Below, piece by piece: positions 31,701 to 57,900 of a stretch of 64,000 bases of DNA; position 1 is the stretch's first letter; every line of letters starts with the position of its first letter. Under the pieces are notes generated by a model, which worked only from the letters and a program-made list of their open reading frames with translations, made no database searches and was not told the origin of the DNA. This DNA comes from Mytilisepta virgata (lineage: Eukaryota; Mollusca; Bivalvia; Mytilida; Mytilidae): contig CM051512.1 in assembly GCA_028015205.1 (NCBI GenBank), forward strand, positions 10,538,255 through 10,602,254, written 5' to 3'. The translations under genes were made by a program, and so were the position numbers.

Positions 31701-34700
31701 AGTTTTGAGATAGAAGAGTTTGAGATAATGATGAGAATCAACTGTATATAGTAGTAATACGTTTGATTTTGCATGGCAGATATGTTTCCAATATTTCCCC
31801 TCAAAATGTGATAAGATTATGACATGGTATTTTGCATATTGGCCCCGGTATTAGCCCTCGGCCCCTATTGGCAATCAGGCTCAATATGGGTGTCTTGTGC
31901 TTACACCTGGGCCAATATGGAAAATCCCATGTAATAATCTGTCATTATCAACTAAATTTTCGAAAGAAAAAAAATTGTTATTAGTTTGTTGAGGCAGAAT
32001 ACATGTACATGTTCTTGACAGCAGTAATATAAATATTTATCAATTGATTGATTCTAGAGGCAGCAGTATATAAAAACAGATCAAAAGACAGTATAAGAGA
32101 AATGTTTGTACAGACAATTATACATACATCTACTTCATGTCGACTTGCAAGACTCGGTTCTAGCGATGATAAAGACTGCTGTACGTGGGGTCTGTCTGAA
32201 AACACTGAAGGTGGTGGTGTTACTCCAGATTTCTCACAACAGGCTTTGGCATCTGTCATCCAGGCTTCTAGTAAAATCTCTCTTGACCACTCTGAGAAAA
32301 AATGTTGAATGACTTCAGTAAAATCAATATTTTAATATTCTGTTTATCAATCTAATTATGTTTTATTTTTTCCCTATTTTTTCCAATTTGTTGGTGTTGA
32401 TCCTTATTAATATCAGAGAAAGTCTTGATTTTTTTTTTATTAACTTTAGCTTCATCTGTGAAGATTTTATACAATATAATGTGAACTTTTGTTTGCTTTA
32501 TGGAAATCTTGCCTTAAAATACCTCTGCCATTACATATAGGGAGTCTATTGAAAATGTCATAATGAAAAAGAAGTAACCCATACATGTAACAATTGAATA
32601 ATACCATAAGTCAGTGAACAAATATTTTATTGCTGTTCCTCAACCTGATAAAGTTTTTGTAACACCTTCAATGATAAGCCACAAGCCAATACCTTAAAAT
32701 GGGTCAAGATGTCAACATTGCATCATTACAGTGATCAGTAGAATAGAGAATGGAAACGGGGAATGTGTCAAAGAGACAACAACCCGACCAAAGAGCAGAA
32801 AACAGCTCAAGGCTACCAATGAGTCTTCATCGCAGCATGAAAATCCTGCACCAAGAGGCGGGCTTCAGCCCTAAACAATAATGCATATTAGTTTAGTGAA
32901 ATGGATGGCACGCTAATCTCCGAAACATACAAACGAACCAAAATTAAAAAACACACATGACTAACAAAGACTTGAAGTTCCTGACTTGGGACAGGCGTAA
33001 AAATGCTACTTGTCATTTATCGACAACCACCACATATGTTCATCTTAGTAATTTAACATACAGTGGAGTTAATCAACAAATCATAATAAATTATTGTCAA
33101 AGTATTCATGCAAAAATGGTCATCGGTCTAGTAAATACAATCCTCTTTGATGAGATAAATTGTCTTGAAAGATTATTTCTTAATGTGAGAGGGGGGGCCT
33201 CGGTGGCCGAGTGGTCTAGGTAGTTCGTCATGACTACTACTAGCCTGTCAACACTGAGGTTGTGAGTTCGAATCTCACCTGTGGCGGGGTGTGTTCGACT
33301 CCGATCTAAATTGACAAGGATTGCCAATTTTCCTACCTAAGGTCAGTGGTTCTCTCTGGGTACTCCGGCTTCCTCCACCAATTAAAACTGGCCGCCGTGA
33401 AATAGCCAAATGGGCTGAAAACGGCGTAAAACCCCAACTAAACAAACAAAAATAATGTGAGAGGGCAGTCACAAAATATAGGTTTAATTGAATTTGCTTT
33501 CACAATAAACTGTTCTCCCCTCTTTCAAACATTATGCTTACCATGATTTCTAAGTAAAGCTTCTGCTGTAAAAAGTGGTACACTGAGCATGTCTGCTGTT
33601 TCCACTAGCAACTGATCTTTGGCTTCCTGCAAATCCTGGGCTCTTAATCCATTATACTCCTATTAAAAAAAATATTCTTTGAATCCAATTTTACTGAAAG
33701 ATACCAAAATTTGTCAATTGAGAAAAAATACATTATTTGCATTTGAAATTGAAAACGATCTGTTTCATCCTGAAATTATCTGTAGCCAATAGGACGTACT
33801 CTTACAAAAGAGATCTAACAGAACTGATATTCTTTTTAAAAATTTGAAAATTGATCATTCAAGCAATCAGGTTTTAACATAATTATTAACCAGATAACAC
33901 AATTAAGATAATTTGATAACAATACATTTGTATAAAGAATATCTGCGAAATATTTATACTATAATGTATGTCCTGTTTGTTATTTTTTCGTCAGATTTTT
34001 ATCTCAAATTTATAAATATGACTATTCTGAGACCCCTAGTTCCATTACATTATATATACATCTGTGTTTTAAATCATCCTTTTAAAGCATTTCTACCTAA
34101 TAATTGTCAGCACCAGAGCACCTGGCAAAACAGCAAAAAAGAATCCAATCTCTTACATCTACCTTGACATGAAAGTATAAATATTTTTAGACTTGCCACA
34201 AGTCTCTGTGTAATATTTCCCATTTATAATTACTTTTTTTTGTTACAAAATGCACCTCTTCTATCCATACCTATTTAGTATCAAACAGTGTATACAATTC
34301 CCTATGTTCATACACTGATAGTAAATATTAAAGTATGGATAGAGAAGTGCCTATTTCATATAAATAATTAATGTAAAAATTAAAAATTACATAGGGACTT
34401 GTAGCAAGTCTAAAATAATTTCAGAGAGTTAAAAAAAACAATAATATCTATATACATGTATAGACACATCTATTTACCTCAGAATCTGGCAGTATAAACA
34501 TGTCTTCCTCATTTTCTTCAGGTCCATCAGCCTATAGTGTAAATAAAGAAATCACTGTAACTATACTCGCTATTATCAAAACAGCTTTTGTATTTGTTTA
34601 TAGTGAGAACATTTTTTCTCTGGCAATGAAAATCAGTATCTGCGGCAGGAAATCTATGAGAGAAAAATTATCATTTACAGTATCTGGTTACTAAATTTAT

Positions 34701-38719: not shown

Positions 38720-38723
38720 ATAT

Positions 38724-39245
38724 TGTAACAGTAGAGCATGCTTTTTCTCCAAAAATTACATACCGCACCAACCAGGGATCGAACCCTGAACCTTTGGTTC
38801 AGTAGTCCATCGCTCTACCAATTGAGCTAAAGGAGTACTCCACTAGCACTGCTAATGGAGGGTGGTTATAAACCTGTTACAGTTCTATGACTTCTATATT
38901 AATCAAGCCTGTTACACTTCCCCCATCTCAAGAGTCGTCATATGACGATCTCCAACTTCAACCAATTTACCAACTAGCCTTTTTTGACAACCGTGGGTTT
39001 TTTGTTGGGCACCAATGTAACGTTACAGTAGAGCATGATTTGTCTCCCAAAATTACCTAGCGCATCCTGGGACCTTTGGTTCAGTAGTCCACAGCTCTAC
39101 CAACTGAGCTAAAAGAATACCCCACTAATTAAGCCAATGGAGGGTGGTTATAAGCCTGTTACGGTTCTATAACTTCTATTATTAACCAAGGGAAACCTGT
39201 TACAGTTCTATAACTTCTATTATTAACCAAGGGAAGATTGTTACA
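38724..39245 (-). mobile_element. Older copy of the same miniature LTR element
   Basis: Inverted relative to the trimer. LTRs are at 38724-38916 (193 bp) and 39016-39245 (230 bp, lengthened by a local duplication of about 40 bp containing CTGTTACAGTTCTATAACTT). The interior is 38917-39015 (99 bp). In element sense the primer site reads TGGTGCCCAAC and the tract before the downstream LTR is GAGATGGGGGAAG. ATAT flanks both ends (38720-38723, 39246-39249). Divergence between LTRs shows it is older than the trimer. Confidence 0.82.
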
Positions 39246-39249
39246 ATAT

Positions 39250-39986: not shown

Positions 39987-39990
39987 CAGT

Positions 39991-40796
39991 TGTAACGGGC
40001 TTCCCTTGATTAATATAGAGGTTATAGAACCGTAACAGGTTTATAACCACCCTCCATTAGCTGCGCTAGTGGAGTACTCCTTTAGCTCAGTTGGTAGAGC
40101 GGTGGACTACTGAACCAAAGGTTCCGGGTTCGATCCCCGGTTGGTGCGGTAGGAAATTTTGGGAGACAAATCATGCTCTACTGTTACATTGGCGCCCAAC
40201 TAAAAAACCCACGGTTGTCAAAAAGGGCTAGTTGGCAAAAGGGTTGAAGTTCGATATCGTCATCGTAGGACGATGACTCTTGAGGTGGGGGAAGTGTAAC
40301 GGGCTTCCCTTGATTAATATAGAGGTTATAGAACCGTAACAGGTTTATAACCACCCTCCATTAGCTGCGCTAGTGGAGTACTCCTTTAGCTCAGTTGGTA
40401 GAGCGGTGGACTACTGAACCAAAGGTTCCGGGTTCGATCCCCGGTTGGTGCGGTAGGAAATTTTGGGAGACAAATCATGCTCTACTGTTACATTGGCGCC
40501 CAACTAAAAAACCCACGGTTGTCAAAAAGGGCTAGTTGGCAAAAGGGTTGAAGTTCGATATCGTCATCGTAGGACGATGACTCTTGAGGTGGGGGAAGTG
40601 TAACGGGCTTCCCTTGATTAATATAGAGGTTATAGAACCGTAACAGGTTTATAACCACCCTCCATTAGCTGCGCTAGTGGAGTACTCCTTTAGCTCAGTT
40701 GGTAGAGCGGTGGACTACTGAACCAAAGGTTCCGGGTTCGATCCCCGGTTGGTGCGGTAGGAAATTTTGGGAGTCAAATCATGCTCTACTGTTACA
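39991..40796 (+). mobile_element. Miniature LTR retroelement, trimeric (LTR-int-LTR-int-LTR)
   Basis: Three LTRs of 198 bp (39991-40188, 40295-40492, 40599-40796) are separated by two 106-bp interiors. LTRs start TGTAAC and end GTTACA. Right after each of the first two LTRs is TGGCGCCCAAC, which matches 11 nt complementary to the 3' end of Lys-tRNA (primer-binding site). Each interior ends in the polypurine tract GAGGTGGGGGAAG directly before the next LTR. CAGT flanks the whole array on both sides (39987-39990, 40797-40800), a 4-bp target duplication. LTR1 and LTR2 look identical, and LTR3 has an A-to-T change near its end. No coding capacity: this is a TRIM-type non-autonomous element. Confidence 0.88.
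40076..40147 (+). other. tRNA-like sequence inside LTR (A and B boxes)
   Basis: Contains a perfect internal Pol III A box, TAGCTCAGTTGG (40083-40094), and B box, GGTTCGATCCC (40127-40137), with a paired T arm. The would-be acceptor arms (ACTCCTT and TTGGTGC) pair poorly and the anticodon stem is mismatched, so it is not called as a working tRNA. The same sequence recurs at 40380-40451 and 40684-40755, and in the older copy on the minus strand around 38760-38835 and 39060-39120. Confidence 0.8.
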
Positions 40797-41147
40797 CAGT
40801 AAATCAACATAGATATTGCCCATTAATGAGCTGTACAATCATGTGGAATTTTAAAAAGACAATTGATTTCATATTGATTACATTAATTAGTTTAACAAAG
40901 AAATAAAGAAGCATATAAAAAACACAAACAGTACATCAACATATACATGTATGTTAAAAAAGTTCAAAACGTAAAAATTGATTTGAAATCTTTAATCTAC
41001 AGCAAATTAAAATATAAATATAATTTGGTATGGAGTTCAGGGCCTGTACCATAAAAGTTGAGAATATTCTTAAGCCTGAGAATATTCTTAAATATCAGAA
41101 TACTCGAATGTGATTGGCTGAGAATGGGAATTTGAGTAAAATTTTCT

Positions 41148-54900: not shown

Positions 54901-57900
54901 TGTTACCTTGTGAACTAGGACATGAAAAATCCGGCTCAGTGTGTCAGTCTAGTACAGAGCAAGATTCAATATGCATATCATACCAACATGTTCTCATCCT
55001 GATATGCATTAAAAAACTGCCATTGGACATTAAACAATAATTTATCCATCCATCAATCTATTACAACTTGTACATTAATCTATAATTTGTGTTTATTTGC
55101 AATAATGAATTGATGTAATTATTTCTTAATTTACAGTATTGAAATTAAAATGAAGGAAAATTTGAAAGTGCCATTTTTCCATTGGAATAAATTTACAATT
55201 GTTTGTAGATCAGTATTTGACAACAATATCAAAATTTCAAAGTTTTTTTTTCATTTTTTAGATGAGCCTTACAACAAAATGGAGGAGGAATTGACTTGTC
55301 CTGTTTGCCTTGATCTTTTTACTGACCCAGTTATACTAATATGTTGTCACACTTTGTGTAGGAAATGTGCTGAAGGTATACTGGAATCTAGAATTGGGTC
55401 AAATCTGACAGGTAAGTCATGGTTGGAAGACAAATTTATTAGGTTTTCATCTATCGACCCTTTGTCTACATTTACCCCCATTTGTCAGGGCTCGACAATA
55501 ACGCTTGTCCGATTGTCCGGTACCAGCTGAAAATTCCGTCGGACAATCAACTTTGACTTGGTACTTGTCCGATGGGACAAGTAAAAAAATTCTGAAAGAA
55601 GGACTTAGAAATAAAAATATTCATCGGAAACCTTCCAATTTTTAATTTGAAATTCATGTTATGGTAGCGAGAATTATCAGTAAACCTTACATGCATAAAG
55701 ATGACAAAATTATTTTTTATTTTCGATTTCACTTTCGAGGGAGAAATATATACCGGGGAATGAATTTCACTTTTCTTCTATTTAATGTGAATCACGTAAA
55801 CGTTTTATTAGGCGGAATAAATATGAATGTAATTGCGTGTTATTGATTTGGGGAAATTAGCCTATCCCATTTTTTTTCTAGGGGTCATTAAGGGTTTTTT
55901 ACTAATTTATGTGTAATTTTTAAAATTTTTGTCCGATTTTTATGATTTTTGGTTTTTAACGTTCCTTGATGAAATTGGAAAAATAAAATAAGTTTGTTTT
56001 TCACCATCTCTTATTGTTTTAGATATAAAAGGGGCCAATAAAGTGACACAGCTTAATTTTCAAAACCTTTTTATTTCTTATCTGATTTTGATTATTTTTT
56101 TTTAAAGTTGATCTGATATGAAATGTAATAAAAGTTACTCAGGGCATTTTTGTGTTACTTTTGTCGATGCATAGATGAAATATATTAAAGGGGCCAAAAT
56201 TAGCCATTTTGCAGGACACCTAAAATTTTCATTTATCAGATTTTAATGGGGATAATTTCTTTTGAGGCATCTTGATAAGTGCTTCCAGTAATATGTAACA
56301 TATTTCTTCTATGTTTTATGGTTTTTGAGATATAAGGGGCCAAAAAGATATGTGGCTTCATAATATATTTTTTTTTATATCCAATTCTTATGGGGATTTC
56401 TCTTTTAATTCACCTTGATAAGTGTTTTCATTAGTATGCCAACAAATTTTTCTGTCTTTTATTTTTTCCAAGATACAATGTGTCAAAGTTGAGATTGTAT
56501 CATGCTGCGCTTAACCAATCTCTTTATTTTTATCTTTTGACATTGCCATGGTTTTACCAGTTAACTTAAAGTTATAACAAATAGCTGCAACAAAAATTTA
56601 TTTAAATGTATTTTTAGTGGATTTGGAAACAAGCTATACCAATATTATGCTAATCCCTCTTCACTTGGATGGTGCAAGAACAGCCTCTTTAATGGCATTT
56701 TAGCCTACTTTTTTTTTTTTTGAAATCTACAGGGGAGTCTTAAACATGCTAAGAGTGTTGTTCTCCCATAACACGGGACAACAATTTTTCGTCCAATAAA
56801 AACAAAGAATAAACAACAAAACTGATGACAGGAAAGGTCCACGATGCCACACAAATCAATCAACTCCATTCAACAGACAGAACCCCAGATATGTTTATTT
56901 TGCCTAAAATTTGCAATAATGAGTCATTATTGTTTTTCAGGAATAGAGTGTCCGTCGTGCAGGAAAGTTCTGAAAATATCTAAAGAAAAAATGAATCTTT
57001 TGCCACAAAATCTTGTATTGAGGAATATGATTACACATTTCCAAGAATTGTCACGTCAAAAAAATCAACAGTCTGAAAACAAATGTACCCAGTTTTGTAG
57101 CGACCATCCCACAGAATATGTCTCTGTTTTCTGTAACCAGTGTAAGGTACCAGTTTGTCACCTGTGTTTGTGTGATGGTGATGGAAAGCATGTTGGACAT
57201 AAAGTTCTAGCAAGAGATACTGCATGTAAACAGATAAAGGTAAAGTGACAAGATGAAAAGAAACAGAGGGCAAAAAGTTTTAATTAAAAAAACAATTTCA
57301 TTAGTGAATGAAAAACTTTTATTTCGTTGAAATAAGTGACGTTATAATGGTTGTGGTTAAAATTTATCTCTGTTGTCAAAAAAATAACATTTTTGATTTC
57401 ATTTTTAACCTAATTTTTCAACATTAAAAATCTAAATTTTAGTTTGGTAATACATGAATACACTTGGCAGGCAGGTGGCTCCAAACAGTGATGAATGAAA
57501 ATTCTGTTTGACCTTCAGACTCATGAATTTGATTATCCATTATACATCGTTTTAAGATGAAAACAGTTTTTAATATTCATACTTTTTAACAATACTGGAT
57601 ATTTCTCACATTTTCCCTTGAAGTACAATTTCTTGTATCAGATAATATTTATTATGTGTCCAGGTGCAAACTGAGGCAAGACATTTAGTGTGTCCACTGT
57701 TGTTTATCTGTTAATATTTGTAATATTATTATAGGAGACATTTAAATCAAAGAAGGAGTCCTTAGAAACTCTCTCCACAACTATGAAGGAGCGATGCCAA
57801 AAAATGAAGGATTTATTTCTGGAAGTCAAGGTAATGGGCTATCTATAATCAATAACTATTATCTCTTACAATATCTGACATCTTTTTGGCTTATAGGTGT

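Follow-up and report, generated by a model that had tools for sequence, protein, structure and literature searches.

The feature at 39991 to 40796 of the window (the whole 64,000-nt stretch of Mytilisepta virgata DNA that we analyzed) is very probably an inserted Helenus-type TRIM with three LTRs and two interiors, an element that carries a tRNA-like Pol III promoter in its LTR and multiplies by the cycle proposed below. The element is a Helenus, an assignment made by the described features of that group. The genome holds its own footprints of both the RNA start and the helper, in the form of inserted dimers and of a chimera that ties Helenus to a young Gypsy family. We provide evidence for these RNA-start footprints, for multiple routes to arrays, and for a Helenus-Gypsy chimera, all of them new here; three-LTR arrays themselves were already known.

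The array consists of three direct LTR copies of 198 bp each at a spacing of 304, with two 106-bp interiors, all within one 4-bp target site duplication (TSD), CAGT, at 39987 to 39990 on the left and 40797 to 40800 on the right. The LTRs, with the ends TGTAAC...GTTACA, lie on the plus strand at 39991 to 40188, 40295 to 40492 (the middle LTR), and 40599 to 40796. LTR1 and LTR2 are identical; a single substitution in LTR3 (position 176, A to T) is the sole difference within the array. The interiors, at 40189 to 40294 and 40493 to 40598, are identical as well, and each holds a PBS of the tRNA-Lys type, TGGCGCCCAAC (40190 to 40200 and 40494 to 40504), and a polypurine tract, GGTGGGGGAAG (40284 to 40294 and 40588 to 40598), the first of which directly precedes LTR2 at 40295. 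The original prediction had described the 198-bp LTRs with TG...CA ends, the CAGT around the whole three-LTR array, the identical interiors within a single TSD, and the polypurine tract right before the next LTR, all as we find them; it had also placed TGGCGCCCAAC right after the LTR, and the site is there but starts one base (a T) later. The two-LTR unit is about 502 bp long and non-coding, and no ORF of at least 90 aa (stop to stop) lies inside 39991 to 40796. A perfect stem, GTCATCGT-AGG-ACGATGAC, occupies 40244 to 40274 of the interior and is possibly an RNA signal; in a minus-strand copy elsewhere in the window (38724 to 39245), the stem is shorter and its self-complementarity is kept.

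Helenus elements are TRIMs that contain tRNA sequence and are known from animals, fungi, and plants, with 51 families in pteriomorph bivalves and tRNA-Lys primer sites among them (Kojima 2024, PMC10886601). A tRNA-like TRIM in an animal, foreseen as a parallel solution to the plant one, is therefore the right identity and not a new one. Like the published families, this element has, in its LTR, sequence derived from a tRNA that includes A and B boxes, and it has a PBS and a polypurine tract between two LTRs, the 4-bp TSDs of animal Helenus, and a length (502 bp) within the range of 311 to 1263 bp with no protein encoded; Gypsy, the supposed helper of animal Helenus, is matched here by one chimera, and tandem arrays are known in zebrafish LTR-11_DR (PMC10886601). 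RNA-start footprints, inserted strong-stop dimers, and a Helenus-Gypsy chimera do not appear in the accessible portion of Kojima 2024 (PMC10886601). The Cassandra TRIMs of plants also have a Pol III promoter and terminator in the LTR and form tandem arrays, but with 5S rRNA sequence in place of tRNA (PMC7215508). Rfam finds no 5S rRNA in the window LTR; tRNA is the only match at the gathering threshold, and searching at E up to 0.1 adds a weak subthreshold YrlA match and no 5S. Tandemly arrayed plant TRIMs share the L3I2 arrays with one TSD (in maize, 63 of 93 arrays) and include an inverted pair flanked by a TSD, but have 5-bp TSDs and no tRNA promoter (Gao et al. 2016, PMC4717578). Template-switch complexes likewise have three LTRs, a TSD, and outer LTRs that are alike, but belong to large autonomous plant elements (Sabot and Schulman 2007, PMC1950507). 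The biv-TRIM of bivalves is of similar size and forms tandem arrays and solo repeats, but its interior is 77 to 80 bp (106 bp in the window), its polypurine tract is GGGGAGA (GGTGGGGGAAG in the window), it has no clear PBS, and its conserved block TGATCCCAAAGGAC is absent by eye from the window interior (Satovic et al. 2019, PMC6934838).

The genome searched comprises 1,034,323,453 bases (1.03 Gb) in 109 contigs. A DNA search returned at least 84 matches (40 of 1,990 candidates scored), with a 99% copy spread over many contigs, and the 24-base LTR-PBS junction occurs at 367 genome sites at up to 2 mismatches (control, 0). Among the sites listed, we read 95 loci (L001 to L046 in part and L057 to L124), covering 100 exact LTR-PBS junctions; these, together with other high-scoring copies, yielded 89 complete two-LTR elements. 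The most similar copies are over-represented among those read, and the 89 are partly non-independent: L017 and L038, which have the same flanks, are perhaps alleles. The 4-bp TSD is perfect in 73 of the 89 and has one mismatch in 12, two in 2, three in 1, and four in 1; at most one mismatch is thus found in 85 of 89, against 1 of 89 when each left flank is paired with the right flank of the next element. The genome search, TSD list, and array count that the original prediction had proposed as a check therefore recover a family with consistent LTR ends and TSDs and with nine L3I2 arrays, and the unit is mainly dispersed instead of occurring solely as a plain tandem satellite. Of the 95 loci, five are L3I2 arrays (L001, which is the window array, L031, L032, L033, and L046), and another five (L034, L075, L078, L092, and L121) are inverted pairs joined head to head. 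The smallest element seen, L117 (C10:42362029-42363729, about 515 to 936), consists of two LTRs and a 26-bp interior. Exact Helenus patterns have 0 matches in public collections of viral contigs and prokaryote genome contigs; the public plasmid collection gave a single match type, tRNA-sized and in Collinsella, which is no relative.

This one genome shows TRIM L3I2 arrays forming by more than one route. The succession of polypurine tract, LTR, and PBS with exact ends occurs at 11 genome sites (control, 0), of which three are broken (L048, L051, and L052) and eight are intact L3I2 arrays; the TSD is perfect in seven of these and has one mismatch in L056. L033, found by spacing, is a ninth with a perfect TSD. 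The nine complete arrays lie in different flanks, and eight have perfect TSDs. If crossing-over took place within one insertion, the middle LTR should take its left part from LTR3 and its right part from LTR1. If multimeric cDNA was inserted, the outer LTRs should be alike, the middle LTR could differ from them, and the tRNA should have renewed the first PBS; the criterion is that of Sabot and Schulman (2007, PMC1950507).

Two arrays of the nine, and perhaps a third, look to have integrated as multimeric cDNA. The outer LTRs of L054 share A21, C26, and an inserted A, all three without counterpart in the middle LTR, and the inserted A is unseen in the other 110 of 112 LTRs. Those of L046 share A9, which is present in no other LTR, and its middle LTR has six further private changes; site 121, however, groups LTR1 with LTR2, contrary to the multimer pattern. 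The LTRs of L032 are all identical, and its interiors differ solely just past the PBS, where the tRNA-Lys match is 15 bases in the first and 12 in the second. The pattern of L046 and L054 could also result from gene conversion, or from recombination with a cDNA circle. One array, L053, looks to have been made by LTR-LTR crossing-over: its middle LTR is the expected mosaic, with the base of LTR3 at 141 and that of LTR1 at 185, and its interiors are identical. L033 (C3:28402300-28403600, TSD CTTG), whose LTR1 is from another subfamily than LTR2 and LTR3, fits neither model, and diagnostic sites are absent from the window array, L031, L055, and L056.

The original prediction had left the window array between integration as a multimer and LTR-LTR recombination; other arrays bear the marks of each, and the window array has no diagnostic site. 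We give an even chance to its having arisen from a two-LTR insertion already in place, when LTRs of its sister or homologous copies crossed over unequally. The single TSD, the identical interiors, the identity of LTR1 with LTR2, and the one change in LTR3 agree with this origin, for which L053 provides a precedent, but they also allow a multimer insertion, as L046, L054, and L032 suggest elsewhere. The scales are level too for insertion as multimeric cDNA, whether template switching or a transcript reading through another array gave rise to it: the variants shared by the outer LTRs of L054 and L046 and absent from their middle LTRs speak for this route, and the want of any diagnostic site in the window array speaks against it. 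Within the cycle that we propose, faulty strand transfers would produce multimers in direct orientation and dimers joined head to head, both inserted intact, and LTR-LTR crossing-over would add further arrays.

The RNA of this element would begin at LTR position 81, 12 bases before the A box. In LTR1 of the window, the start would fall at the palindrome GGAGTACTCC (40071 to 40080; LTR positions 81 to 90), and a hairpin, CTCCATTAGCTGCGCTAGTGGAG (40052 to 40074), marks the end of the putative U3 and is unchanged in 102 of 112 full-length LTRs. Four copies are 5'-truncated, in that the first LTR starts beyond position 20 next to an unrelated flank: L098 and L118 start at 81, L085 at 82, and L084 at 165. 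This set excludes L087, L097, and L052 (internal LTR deletions), L033 (a subfamily deletion), and L060, L064, L086, and L104, whose matches start at 3 to 17, a start that may reflect divergence. All five head-to-head pairs among the 95 loci turn at or near GGAGTACTCC. The exact 26-base turn occurs at 16 genome places (control, 0), and at 33 when up to 2 mismatches are allowed, some of these being mutated ordinary LTRs. Both ends were examined in ten dimers (4 from the 95 loci and 6 further ones of the 16 turns), and 9 of the 10 have perfect TSDs. L034 (ACTG), L075 (CATG), L092 (ATTG), and L121 (ATAC) have U5 ends outward on both sides; five of the six further dimers are flanked by AAAG, CGTG, TTTC, CAAT, or GCTG, and the left end of the dimer L127 is not recognizable. 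Four of those five span 239 to 343 bp, near the length of two 118-bp R-U5 pieces plus short repeats at the turn.

On a simple reading, the cDNA ends at LTR position 81 mark the RNA 5' end; two of them would anneal by way of the palindrome and be extended, after which the integrase would use the two U5 ends of the product to insert it. A start 12 bases upstream of the A box is within the usual range for tRNA genes. The palindrome at position 81 could cause turn-backs without an RNA end there, but a turn due to the hairpin alone is less favored because plain truncations also start at 81 to 82. We think it somewhat probable that minus-strand strong-stop DNAs, each an R-U5 piece of 118 bp, become joined in pairs where the RNA 5' end is palindromic and that Gypsy integrase inserts the resulting ~240-bp palindromes with 4-bp TSDs. 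If true, inserted strong-stop dimers supply the genome with short MITE-like elements, built as inverted repeats, that derive from a retroelement, and they also record in the genome where transcription starts at a tRNA-type promoter within an LTR. The titles and abstract openings returned by a literature search hold nothing on inserted strong-stop palindromes of TRIMs, which leaves their absence from the literature unproven.

Rfam calls a tRNA three times in the array, once per LTR (40076 to 40148, 40380 to 40452, and 40684 to 40756), at 41.3 bits against a gathering score of 29. ARAGORN calls no tRNA gene in these LTRs, and the Rfam alignment leaves a large part of the acceptor stem without pairing; we therefore regard the sequence as a tRNA-like promoter and not a tRNA gene, and a functional tRNA from the LTR appears unlikely. 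The A box, TAGCTCAGTTGG (40083 to 40094 in LTR1), agrees with the A box consensus. The B box, GGTTCGATCCC (40127 to 40137), departs at one base from the consensus GGTTCGANTCC, so that of the perfect A and B boxes originally described, the A box stands and the B box is one base off. From the position of the RNA-start footprint, we infer that the Helenus LTR is transcribed by Pol III. The single TTTT of the unit (40157 to 40160 in LTR1), a possible leaky Pol III terminator, lies 30 bases past the B box start and before the PBS, so that a full-length RNA must pass TTTT once. It is present in 112 of 112 full-length LTRs read, an invariance that is weak evidence of function given that LTR columns vary by 1.1% on average, and shuffled sequence also contains about one TTTT for each unit (mean, 0.99). 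Some transcripts would pass the TTTT of the 5' LTR and end at that of the next, giving R-U5-interior-U3-R, where R would span LTR positions 81 to 170. L064 and L065, considered as copies ending at TTTT, both carry an internal deletion on reading and were rejected.

Transcription by Pol II, in which an ordinary LTR transcript is mobilized and the tRNA-like sequence is a passenger from a SINE insertion, is an unlikely account of the element. It would suit the A and B box columns, which are conserved no better than the rest of the LTR (112 LTRs; 161 of 197 circular shifts as low or lower); box conservation thus offers no sign that the boxes are under selection, in a test that is weak because the sample is made of young copies. 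It would also suit a TTTT ahead of the PBS, which should shorten many Pol III transcripts: T4 terminated 65% of the transcripts of a B2 SINE, and at a tRNA gene the share was about 95% (PMC8466645). Against Pol II stand the putative RNA start 12 bases ahead of the A box, a distance like that in tRNA genes, the commonest form of the A box in 95 of 112 LTRs and of the B box in 104 of 112, and the finding of Kojima 2024 that distantly separated Helenus families keep the boxes (PMC10886601).

Under the Pol III cycle that we favor, tRNA-Lys would prime at TGGCGCCCAAC, as occasional tRNA sequence copied beyond the PBS indicates. We read 132 PBS sites, a few places being counted twice (e.g., L078 and L126). 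The match to the tRNA-Lys complement is 11 bases at 121 of them, 12 at 4, 15 at 1 (L032), 16 at 1 (L117), and 18 at 4, the longest being two in L053 plus L078/L126, which are one place. In the PBS of L030, base 4 is mismatched, after which the match to tRNA-Lys extends to base 15. The extra primer-matching bases at five separate loci are explained by tRNA copied during plus-strand synthesis. In L117 (TSD ATAG), copied GTGGG runs directly into the polypurine tract, a junction that fits mis-transfer through the GTGGG common to the tRNA copy and the polypurine tract. The 22-base 3' end of tRNA-Lys occurs at 5 places on C13 (37262747-37409192), within 147 kb. A candidate tRNA-Lys gene at one C13 locus (L136) is a 5'-truncated piece preceded by an A-run, on which ARAGORN and Rfam make no call, and was rejected.

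The RNA would be carried within a Gypsy particle, whose reverse transcriptase and integrase would make the DNA and insert it with 4-bp TSDs, as one chimera indicates. At L078, Helenus R-U5 and an 18-base PBS continue into the 3' end of an ORF. The DNA on the ORF side has 8 copies (93 to 100% over the whole query, that locus included), and 7 of the 8 have an LTR piece 5 to 12 kb upstream. The chimera as a whole (L078, L125, and L126) is bounded at one side by the Helenus U5 end and at the opposite side by an LTR end of Gypsy, with GTAT flanking both. A single TSD around a chimera of Helenus and a ~10-kb Gypsy implies shared reverse transcription and integration. A copy of the partner on C8 (TSD ATTA) has an LTR of ~1.47 kb that is 99.7% like that of L126. 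Its pol piece encodes RVT_1 and RT_RNaseH, with Integrase_H2C2 and rve in another frame, and the best solved-structure match of the first pol piece is Ty3, which together identify the partner as a Gypsy element; the 3' end of pol alone has no Pfam or PDB match. The U5 end of the C8 copy is ACTGCTACA, against ACTGTTACA in Helenus. Its leader begins TTTTTGGCGCCC and has 8 PBS bases (TGGCGCCC) in common with Helenus, with no other clear similarity. The case for Gypsy as helper is one chimera, one event.

That the window array is a simple tandem satellite or an assembly artefact, as its nearly identical units might suggest, is exceedingly improbable, given dispersed copies with TSDs, a 99% copy in many contigs, and arrays that, where read, are three LTRs long in differing flanks, eight of nine with perfect TSDs. 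A SINE, in which target-primed insertion would leave variable-length TSDs and a 3' tail, was rejected on the fixed 4-bp TSDs and LTR ends.

The original prediction missed a second, older Helenus copy of the same family on the minus strand (39245 to 38724). This copy, an LTR-interior-LTR unit of 522 bp, is flanked by ATAT at 38720 to 38723 and 39246 to 39249. In its 5' LTR, 41 bp are duplicated and the B box is gone; its 3' LTR retains the A box, the B box, and a T5. BLAST finds no further LTR copies in the 64,000-nt window, the remaining matches being weak ones between the LTR and its reverse complement. At 33197 to 33286, an Rfam tRNA match of 32.2 bits heads an apparent SINE, in which the tRNA match is followed by a block with GGTTCTCTCTGGGTACTCCGGCTTCCTCC that resembles a bivalve SINE core. 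Two neighboring open stretches at 809 to 1603, the second with a weak RNase H match below the Pfam cutoff, are probably a decayed retrotransposon. Exons for a RING and a B-box zinc finger at 55114 to 57245 probably belong to a TRIM-type E3 ligase gene.
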